This document shows, piece by piece, positions 5,397 to 32,660 of a stretch of DNA of 64,000 bases (positions are counted from its first letter, which is position 1; every line of letters starts with the position of its first letter). Made by a program: the position numbers and the translations under genes. The DNA is from Pedobacter chinensis (lineage in GTDB: Bacteria; Bacteroidota; Bacteroidia; Sphingobacteriales; Sphingobacteriaceae). The DNA is taken from positions 1,054,001-1,118,000 of the forward strand of contig NZ_QPKV01000003.1 of the NCBI RefSeq assembly GCF_003339865.1. The letters are read 5' to 3'. Under the pieces are notes generated by a model, which was not told the DNA's origin, did no database searches, and saw only the letters and a list, made by a program, of their open reading frames with translations.

Positions 5397-5415
5397 GCCG
5401 CAGATTTGCAGATTT
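5397..5415 (+). repeat. Left inverted repeat of the GxxExxY element
   Basis: GCCGCAGATTTGCAGATT matches, with one mismatch in 18, the reverse complement of AATCTGCTAATCTGCGGC found right after the GxxExxY gene. A solo relative CCGCAGATTCGCAGATT lies at 15878-15894. Confidence 0.65.
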
Positions 5416-5426
5416 AAAATAAATTC

Positions 5427-5830
5427 ATGATTATGAAAAATCTCTACAATGGTTCTGATTATCCCTTTCGAGAAGAATGTTATTTAATCATTGGCATTGC
5501 AATGGAGATATATAGAATTTTAGGTAAAGGTTTTTAGAAATTGTTTATAAGGATGCGCTTGAAAATGAGCTTAATTTAAGAGGCATTAATTACGAAAGAG
5601 AAAAAGAATTCTCAGTAAATTATAAAGGAATAATTCTTAAGCACAAATTTTATGCAGACTTTGTTATCGATAACAAGATAATTCTCGAGATTAAATCGAG
5701 CACTGGGTTTGTTGATGAGTATTACGCTCAGGTATTAAATTATCTCACAATTTCGAAATTACAAATAGGTCTGTTAATCAACTTCAATGAAAAGTCTTTA
5801 CAGTATAAAAGAATTATCCAAAGCAAATAA
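5427..5830 (+). pseudogene. Frameshifted GxxExxY (PDDEXK-like) protein gene
   Basis: Reading from ATG at 5427 gives MIMKNLYNGSDYPFREECY and stops at TAG after ILGKGF, at a run of five T near 5531-5535. Adding one T restores the frame: LEIVYKDALENELNLRG, then YADFVIDNKIILEIKSS and QVLNYLTISKLQIGLLINF to a stop at 5830. This is the GxxExxY family (TIGR04256; Pfam PDDEXK_3), about 125-130 residues, with the nuclease-like D...E-I-K pattern intact. It is either a real 1-nt deletion or an assembly error in the T-run. The function of the family is not established. Near-identical inverted repeats flank the gene. Confidence 0.85.
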
Positions 5831-6145
5831 TTGTTTTAATTCAATAAAAAATAATCTGCTAATCTGCGGCCACCTTCAATGAAAAGCCCCACAGCATAAA
5901 AAATAATCCAAAGCAAATAATTGTTTTAATTCAATAAAAAATAATCTGCGAATCTGCGGCCACCTTCAATGAAAAGCCCCGCAGCATAAAAAATTATCCA
6001 AAGCAAATGATTGTTTTAATTCAATAAAAAATAATCTGCTAATCTGCGGCCACCTTCAATGAAAAGCCCCACAGTATAAAAAATAATCCAAAGCAAATGA
6101 TTGTTTTAATTCAATAAAAATAATCTGCTAATCTGCGGCTACCTT
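5783..6145 (+). repeat. Four tandem copies (about 90 bp) including the GxxExxY 3' end
   Basis: Copies begin at 5783, 5875, 5965 and 6055, each starting ttcaatgaaaag and ending aatctgcggc(c/t)acc. The first copy overlaps the last 48 nt of the GxxExxY frame, so the unit spans the gene's 3' end plus the right inverted repeat. Later copies differ from the first but are nearly identical to each other, so they expanded after the first split. This accounts for most of the gap before bshA. Confidence 0.85.
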
Positions 6146-10295: not shown

Positions 10296-11423
10296 CGTTC
10301 CTGCGATTCAGGTCCTGAAACAAACGGCGCAGCCCTCTTGAATACCAATAAAAACTTAAAAACAAATGAAAAATTCAGGAAGGCGACCGTTCAGGTATAG
10401 TGTTTTAAACGCCTCGCCAAGCCATCACGTCATGCTGAACTTGTTTTACAAGTGTAAATATTAATTTTAAAGGTCTTGTAGCTACTTCGTGGTCAGCATC
10501 TTTCCTGCTATGCGTTCATGTCATTAAGGTTCTGAAACAAACGGCGCAGCCCTCTTGAATACCAATAAAAACTTAAAAACAAATGAAAAATTCAGAATGA
10601 CGACCGTTCATGTATGGTGTGTTAAGCGTAATGCCTAACCATCTCGTCATGCTAAATTTATTTCAGCATCTTTCCTGCTATGTTTTCATGCGATTCAGGT
10701 CCTGAAACAAGTTCAGGAAGGCGACCGTTCATGTATGGTTTTAGGCAGTATGCCTAGCCATCTCGTCATGCTGAATTTATTTCAGCATCTTTCCTGCTAG
10801 GCGTTCATGCCATTAAGGTTCTGAAACAAGTTCAGCATGACGATCGTTCATGTATGGTGTTTTAAGCGCCTCGCCTAGCCACCACGTCATGCTGACCTGT
10901 AGCGAAGCGGAAAGCTACGAAGTAAATTTATTTTACAAATGGAGTTAGTGTTTTCAATGGTCTTGTAGCTACTTCGTGGTCAGCATCTTTCTGGCGATGC
11001 GTTCCTGCGATTAAGGTCCTGAAACAAGTTCAGGATGACGATCGTTTGTGTATGGTGTGTTAAGCGCTTGGCCTGGCCATCACGTCATGCTGAATTTATC
11101 TCAGCATCTTTCCTGTGATGTGTTCATGCGATTCAGGTCCTGAAACAAACGGTGCAGCCCTCTTGAATACCAATAAAAACTTAAAAACAAATGAAAAATT
11201 CAGCATGACGATCGTTCATGTATGGTGTTTTAAGCGCCTCGCTAAGCCACCACGTCATGCTGAATTTATCTCAGCATCTTTCCAGCTAGGCGTTCATGCC
11301 ATTAAGGTCCTGAAACAAACGGCGCAGCCCTCTTGAATACCAATAAAAACTTAAAAACAAATGAAAAATTCAGAATGACGATCGTTCATGTATGGTGTGT
11401 TAACATAATGCTTAACCACCCCT
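10296..11423. repeat. 1.1-kb block of modular hairpin repeats
   Basis: Non-coding DNA built from recurring modules: (A) cgtcatgctgaatttatttcagcatctt, a hairpin; (B) ggtcctgaaacaagttcagg followed by atgacg, a hairpin; (C) a longer arm with agctacgaag and tgtagctacttcg; plus spacers such as cgttcatgtatggtgtttta. In some B modules the loop is enlarged by a conserved insert of about 51 nt containing cggcgcagccctcttgaata (near 10322, 10539, 11148 and 11320). The same modules recur at 23213-24018, 40655-40840 (reverse orientation) and 60143-60275. Open frames here are not genes. Confidence 0.85.
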
Positions 11424-15877: not shown

Positions 15878-15896
15878 CCCGCAGATTCGCAGATTT
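15878..15896 (+). repeat. Solo CCGCAGATTCGCAGATT motif
   Basis: Same sequence type as the inverted repeats that flank the GxxExxY gene at 5397 and 5850, here without a gene beside it. Confidence 0.5.
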
Positions 15897-23212: not shown

Positions 23213-24018
23213 ATACTGTTAAGCGCTTGGCCTAGCCACTACGTTATGTTAAATTTATTTTACAAGTGTAAATATTAATTTTAAAAGGTCTTGTAGCTAC
23301 TTCGTGGTCGGCACTTTCTGGCGATGCATTCATGCCATTAAGGTCCTGAAACAAGTTCAGGAAGACGACCGTTCATGTATAGTGTTTTAAACGCCTAGCT
23401 TAGCCACTACGTCATGCTGAATTTATTTCAGCATCTTTCCTGCTAGGCGTTCATGCTATTAAGGTTCTGAAACAAGTTCAGAATGACGGCCGTTCATGTA
23501 TGGTGTTTAGGCGTTTTGTTTTGCCATCTCGTCCTGCTGACCTGTAGCGAAGCGGAAAGCTACGAAGTAAATTTATTTTACAAATGGAGTTAGTGTTTTC
23601 AATGGTCTTGTAGCTACTTCGTGGTCAGCATCTTTCTGGCGATGCATTCATGCCATTAAGGTCCTGAAACAAGTTCAGGAAGACGACCGTTCATGTACAG
23701 TGTTTTAAACGCCTCGCTAAGCCACCACGTCATGCTGAATTTATTTCAGCATCTTTCCTGCTATGCGTTCATGCCATTAAGGTCCTGAAACAAGTTCAGG
23801 ATGACGGCCGCTCATGTATGGTGTTTTAAACGCCTGGTCTGGCCACCACGTCATGCTGACCTGTAGCGAAGCGGAAAGCTACGAAGTAAATTTATTTTAC
23901 AAATGGAGTTAGTGTTTTTCAATGGTCTTGTAGCTACTTCGTGGTCAGCATCTTTCTTGCTATGCGTTCCTGCTGTTAAGGTCCTGAAACAAGTTCAGGA
24001 TGACGACCGTTTGTAATC
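23213..24018. repeat. 0.8-kb block of modular hairpin repeats
   Basis: The same A, B and C modules as at 10296-11423, with B modules all in the short-loop form (cctgaaacaagttcagg at several places). The long C arms at 23540-23640 and 23865-23955 are almost identical, pointing to recent copying. No gene is seen. Confidence 0.85.
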
Positions 24019-32070: not shown

Positions 32071-32660
32071 ATGGTTTGAGTTTTTTTACCACCTAAGACA
32101 TCTGAGAGCAGCTAAGTCATATGTAATTATCTTTAGGGTTCTAAGGTGGTTGATTTAGAACGTGGCTAATTCATTTTAAAGTTTGTACTGCTGACACACC
32201 TTTACGGTTTGAGTTTTTTACCACCTAAGACATCTGAGGGCAGCTAAGTCATATGCAATTATCTTAGGTTTTCTAAGGTTTCTAAGGTGGTTGATTTTGG
32301 AAGACGTGGCTAATCATTTTAAAGTTCGTACTGTTGACACACCTTTACGGTTTGAGTTTTTTACCACCTAAGACATCTGAGGGCAGCTAAGTCATATGCA
32401 ATTATCTTAGGTTTTCTCAGATGTCTAAGTTGGTTGATTTAGAACGTGGCTAACCATCTTTTAAAATTCATACTGCCGACACACTTTATACGGTTGAGTT
32501 TTTACCACCTAAGACATCTGAGAGCAGCTAAGTCATATGCATTATCTTAGGTTTTCTAAGGTGTTGATTTTGGAAGACGTGGCTAATCATTTTAAAGTTC
32601 GTACTGTTGACACAGTTTGAGTTTTTACCCAGCTAATACATTTAACGGTACTTGAGTGTC
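32071..32660 (+). repeat. Five tandem copies of a 135-143-bp hairpin repeat
   Basis: Copies start near tttgag at 32074, 32208, 32351, 32492 (as ggttgag) and 32616 (partial). Each contains accacctaagacatctgag and a complementary ctcagatgtctaagttggt or its ctaaggtggt variants, so each unit can form a large hairpin. The last copy decays into the M28 gene's upstream region, and the frame at 32656-32757 is therefore not coding. Confidence 0.85.

Follow-up and report, generated by a model that had tools for sequence, protein, structure and literature searches.

What kind of element is formed by a GxxExxY gene and the inverted repeats on either side of it? The question is raised by a small cassette in the window, the 64,000-nt stretch of Pedobacter chinensis DNA that was analysed. 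Its left arm, GCCGCAGATTTGCAGATT (5397–5414, plus strand), consists of two words, GCCGCAGATT-T-GCAGATT, and is followed by an apparently decaying copy of the gene at about 5433–5830 (plus strand; delimited by profile matches and sequence) and by a first right arm, AATCTGCTAATCTGCGGC (5853–5870, minus strand). By sequence match the two arms were located as inverted copies of each other with one mismatch, as the initial annotation had described them. Three more right arms were matched on the minus strand at 5943–5960, 6033–6050, and 6122–6139, with spacings of 90, 90, and 89 nt. Tandem repeat analysis with TRF placed them in an array at 5782–6145 (plus strand; period 90, 4.0 copies, 93% match) that begins about 49 nt before the gene end and repeats this part of the gene together with the right arm, in agreement with the earlier statement that the right end and the last 48 nt of the gene are present in four copies at intervals of about 90 bp. 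The arm unit, GCCGCAGATTNGCAGATT, repeats one word in direct orientation and forms no palindrome. A single gene-less word pair, CCGCAGATTCGCAGATT, was found by sequence match in an intergenic position beyond a terminator-like hairpin (15879–15895, plus strand); this solo copy had been listed at 15878, and its start is to be corrected to 15879. The neighbours of the cassette are bshA and unrelated genes, and in relatives the equivalent place, with bshA on one side and other genes on the other, is occupied by intact orthologues. In two of these orthologues (L137 and L142) the right arm occurs twice, approximately 70 bp apart, a duplication that apparently arose independently of the 90-bp one in the window.

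Read across its frameshift, the window gene matches TIGR04256 (6e-39, 133 bits; curated cut-off 35) and PF13366 PDDEXK_3 (123.5 bits; cut-off 22), and its intact relatives fall in the same family. The domain search returned PF13366 and weak nuclease matches only, and no Y1 (HUH) transposase was detected between the arms. The 1-nt frameshift that had been proposed was borne out by the match across it and by the existence of intact orthologues; the reading frame is apparently broken at the T-run 5531–5535, and the downstream frame holds only post-shift residues. The window copy also has a tyrosine at a nearly invariant histidine position, so that its catalytic residues are not intact. Judged from its sequence, this copy is decaying: it is frameshifted, has lost the histidine, and has a tandemly repeated right end. 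Most comparisons of the orthologues at the bshA site gave dN/dS values of 0.04 to 0.31, which indicates purifying selection; one pair with very few changes gave 0.96.

GxxExxY proteins have a length of about 115–130 amino acids and fall into two clades, in both of which the residues H, D, ExK, and QxxxY are conserved, a pattern that fits a putative RecB/Cas4-type active site. An intact orthologue was modelled (pLDDT 93.9), and the best structural match of the model was Cas4 SSO0001 (Foldseek 4e-6; VIA Z 9.6, 4.0 A over 100 residues). Relatives of lambda exonuclease, restriction enzymes, and archaeal Holliday resolvases came next, with scores at which a common fold is hardly informative. GxxExxY is thus predicted from the model to be a minimal PD-(D/E)XK nuclease of the RecB/Cas4 type. 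No invariant cysteine column was present among 41 aligned sequences, and the proteins therefore lack the four-cysteine Fe-S signature of CRISPR Cas4. Models of defence nucleases gave weak matches only; a protein from Sphingomonas (L218) weakly matched the PD-(D/E)XK portion of RTasPDDEXK, a model for a defence system with a reverse transcriptase (8.4e-5). A collection of 50,697 phage records contained no GxxExxY match, 8 of 72,556 plasmid records contained one, and a single match, to the second-clade profile, was obtained from viral contigs. An origin as phage or plasmid cargo is not supported by this near-absence of the family from the phage, plasmid, and viral collections.

The genome of P. 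chinensis encodes seven GxxExxY genes, which are only 26–56% identical to each other, so that each kind is present as a single copy. CAGATT words occur at the window gene alone among the seven; other members are bracketed by inverted words of their own (ACCACCTAAG, ACCGCAAAG, CCACGGAA, and CACAAAAGAAAC). For some of these words, the genome also contains copies without a gene. One example, identified by repeat search and word match, is a gene-less tandem array of the ACCACCTAAGACAT... word in the window (32073–32614, plus strand; period about 143, 3.9 copies), whose word is also found on both sides of a different GxxExxY gene (contig C11:35579-35905). At two genes of this genome, L014 (AGGATTAACA) and L010 (CCTTAATG-like), the flanking word series are partly direct rather than inverted and represent two clear dialects outside CRCNRAK.

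Bracketing by inverted words is common to the family. Inverted arms were detected at 73 of the 79 scorable loci, drawn from 80 named GxxExxY loci of public genomes, compared with 9 of 129 control open reading frames (ORFs). Left and right arms from a single locus matched far better than arms swapped between loci (19.7 vs 11.4). A larger set gave inverted arms for 136 of 174 GxxExxY genes (shuffled, 4; reversed, 5), and 91 of 145 genes, but only 1 of 138 control ORFs, were flanked left and right by tandem CRCNRAK pairs that are inverted relative to each other. The arms consist of two to four copies of a word of 7–9 nt, usually CRCNRAK; about 20% of GxxExxY genes have no clear arms. The layout extends to the alphaproteobacterium Sphingomonas parapaucimobilis, where a GxxExxY gene (L218; NZ_CP155749.1, 482837–483265) lies between fabD and fabG with inverted CGCGAAG words. 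The arm signal was weak in Treponema, and no clear arms were seen in the Fusobacteriota and Persicobacter genes inspected. The words themselves are clade-specific (CAGATT, CGAATT, CAAAG, CAGAG, and others). One universal word for all GxxExxY genes was accordingly rejected, and of the earlier expectation that these genes are flanked by CCGCAGATTnGCAGATT ends the bracketed layout holds for the family, whereas the exact word is bound to a clade and provides no rule. The description of a nuclease-like gene with recognition-type ends and without a transposase is supported, and more generally than the sequence of the window could show.

The association between word and protein was assessed by scoring each word by its ending, AT or AG. 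On a tree of 139 genes the word type changed 4 times, compared with 41 changes for shuffled labels (minimum 32). After thinning to 13 rows (<55% identity) 2 changes remained, compared with 4.7 when shuffled, and 3 of 500 shuffles were as low. Genomes such as G312, G360, G364, and G065 carry genes of both clades and both word types. Since single genomes hold genes of both types, the word follows the clade of the gene and not the host. Such a link could also arise if gene and arms were passed on together, and does not by itself prove recognition.

Most copies of the window word have no GxxExxY gene between them and form convergent hairpin doublets and tandem arrays. The 17-mer GCCGCAGATTNGCAGATT (searched as CCGCAGATTNGCAGATT) has 69 sites in the genome at ≤1 mismatch and the reversed control has none, which shows that the word is not a product of chance. 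Of the 71 word sites obtained from genome stretches, 37 belong to convergent doublets, in which the words face inward and are capable of hairpin folding, 21 are part of tandem series, 10 stand singly, and only 3 diverge. The loops of the doublets showed no relatedness between loci, apart from one other repeat; TTTCATCTTGAGCATAGTCGAAGA lies within some of them (L030, L031, and L026), so that repeats are nested in each other. A separate repeat family, tandem or interspersed, occupies positions 25–478, 10584–10868, 11020–11403, and 23625–23859 of the window (CGTCATTGCGA..., CGTCATGCTGAA...TTCAGCATC). A sample of 464 kb, made up of the window and 400 kb chosen irrespective of words, was searched with an anchored generic pattern for two CRCNRAK words, which had 19 matches and its reversed control 2; 15 of the 19 were intergenic, although intergenic bases make up 20% of the sample. 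Tandem arrays were rejected as a special mark of the words: arrays are common anyway, and 16 of the 18 in the 464 kb lack a generic word pair, a pattern that does not catch an array of the L009 type. Rfam had no match at the word sites and only a SAM riboswitch and a Flavo-1 RNA nearby, and a known RNA family was rejected as the identity of the words. The initial annotation had counted abundance of the motif far from such genes against the association; this abundance was indeed found, and it is read here not as a refutation but as a gene-less population resembling that of REP sequences.

Across genomes, the words were encountered where GxxExxY genes were present. The genus was represented by 145 genomes, and three or more sites of the CCRCDRATTNRCDRATT pattern were present in 42 of the 84 that carry GxxExxY but in 0 of the 61 that lack it; in a phylum sample of 296 genomes the corresponding figures were 18 of 149 and 0 of 147 (raw counts in both cases, with kinship ignored). 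A strict dependence of each word on one gene failed, however. When all GxxExxY genes of ten word-rich genomes were inspected, five genomes had exactly one gene of the abundant word type and five had none. The gene is therefore not needed for persistence of the words, and perhaps not for their spread. Gene loss or decay after spread, comparable to the decaying gene of the window, would explain the latter genomes, and spread by another agent would explain them too.

Orthologous sites differ in their content. At the bshA site, 9 of the 30 orthologous loci compared contain the gene-bearing element, and a gene-less element of 136 bp (L027b) is missing from the relatives G047 and G053. At one intergenic site (L255 and its orthologues L328–L336), the hairpins found belong to dialects that differ between species (CAGATT, CACGGAA, CACAGATAA...), as if the element had been replaced or re-lettered. 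No target-site duplication was common to the flanks of eight doublets, no relative was near enough for exact empty sites, and the comparisons of orthologous sites revealed no movement of the element. Of the mobile cassette proposed earlier, the variable occupancy of sites thus stands, and neither a target duplication nor movement was seen; mobility is supported only indirectly, by presence and absence at orthologous sites.

Taken together, we consider it somewhat probable that the GxxExxY gene and the surrounding word repeats constitute a two-part genetic element resembling REPIN/RAYT, in which a PD-(D/E)XK nuclease acts on doublets of its own word. The bracketing, the link of word and clade, the gene-less copies, the variable occupancy of sites, and the catalytic signature were observed; binding, cleavage, and a causal role of the nuclease in the spread are inferred from them. 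The five word-rich genomes without a matching gene speak against this reading, as do the unrelated loops, which set the doublets apart from ordinary non-autonomous transposons, and the genes without clear arms. In the proposed mechanism, the nuclease would recognise and bind this word in doublets that have folded or become single-stranded, and would cut at the recognised doublet. Host repair or replication could then copy the small element elsewhere, which would mobilise it and make the nuclease a cause of its spread, or could duplicate it in place, which would give rise to tandem arrays.

The main rival explanation regards the gene as a passenger that merely lies inside or adjoins words spread by another activity (a RAYT, another transposase, or replication slippage). 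The five word-rich genomes without a gene of the abundant word are in keeping with this, as is the presence of four Y1_Tnp matches, two of them strong, in the host genome. Nevertheless, we regard a passenger role as unlikely, considering that the words are near none of these four loci, that word type tracks the GxxExxY clade, and that genomes without GxxExxY are also without words. A RAYT adjoining the words was likewise unsupported, as the Y1_Tnp genes are located elsewhere and without words. Another possibility is that the words regulate the nuclease gene by binding or termination, the gene-less copies being ordinary terminator hairpins at gene ends. Several gene-less copies do directly follow a stop codon and lie between an A-run and a T-run, and at the orthologous site of one of them (B_L026) an ordinary terminator takes its place in relatives. 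An upstream arm, tandem arrays, a near-identical 17-mer at unrelated loci, and turnover between species would be unexpected for regulatory sites, which renders this explanation improbable. Even less can be said for a cassette that carries a lone nuclease of defence or repair and whose arms serve recombination between copies. The relationship of the protein to the Cas4/RecB fold and the weak matches to defence nuclease models are compatible with such a role, but the near-absence from phage, plasmid, and viral collections speaks against it and the gene-less words of matching type are left unexplained, so that we deem it very improbable.

We tentatively propose, as a plausible though by no means assured reading, that Cas4/RecB-type GxxExxY nucleases recognise their own tandem words and propagate hairpin doublets, and thereby form a second, independently evolved system of the REPIN/RAYT type. 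Co-evolution of nuclease and word would here have led to many separate dialects, several per genome. In the open-access literature on the words, on TIGR04256/PF13366, and on related repeats, neither anything on function nor a report of the association of gene and word was found. GxxExxY is widespread, being carried by about half of the sampled Bacteroidota genomes and often in several copies, and has no assigned function. The link to a dispersed word provides a candidate substrate for this family and suggests where common intergenic repeats may come from. Should the nuclease indeed read its word, the many pairs of nuclease and word found in nature would lend themselves to work on the evolution of DNA specificity in a small PD-(D/E)XK enzyme.

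Among known systems, MITEs and other non-autonomous insertion sequences share with the GxxExxY elements the occurrence of small gene-less inverted-repeat forms beside a gene-bearing one. They differ in that the loops of the gene-less copies are unrelated here (a shared loop sequence of the MITE kind was looked for between loci and not found), that no target-site duplication was seen at the eight doublets compared, and that the gene-bearing form lacks a DDE or HUH transposase. Cas4 and RecB-family nucleases (SSO0001, lambda exonuclease, and AddAB) resemble GxxExxY in the predicted fold and the H, D, ExK, QxxxY signature, whereas GxxExxY is small, has neither conserved cysteines nor a helicase, is chromosomal, and is bracketed by word repeats. 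The closest layout is that of RAYT genes with their REP/REPIN repeats (PMC2817692, PMC3116915). In both systems the gene lies between two inverted repeat units, the unit is dispersed intergenically as inverted doublets, each kind of gene is a single copy divergent from the others in its genome, the flanking repeat co-varies with the gene, and tandem clusters take in flanking sequence. In contrast, the GxxExxY system is centred on the Bacteroidota in the present sample, its enzyme belongs to the predicted PD-(D/E)XK nucleases and RAYT to the Y1 HUH transposases, and its unit consists of tandem words of 7–9 nt where REP is self-palindromic with a GTAG/CGTC-type tag. With an enzyme other than a Y1 transposase and a unit of tandem words in place of a palindrome, the GxxExxY system falls outside the RAYT family. 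It has the appearance of a partnership of gene and repeat that has been overlooked, resembling REP/RAYT but employing an unrelated enzyme.
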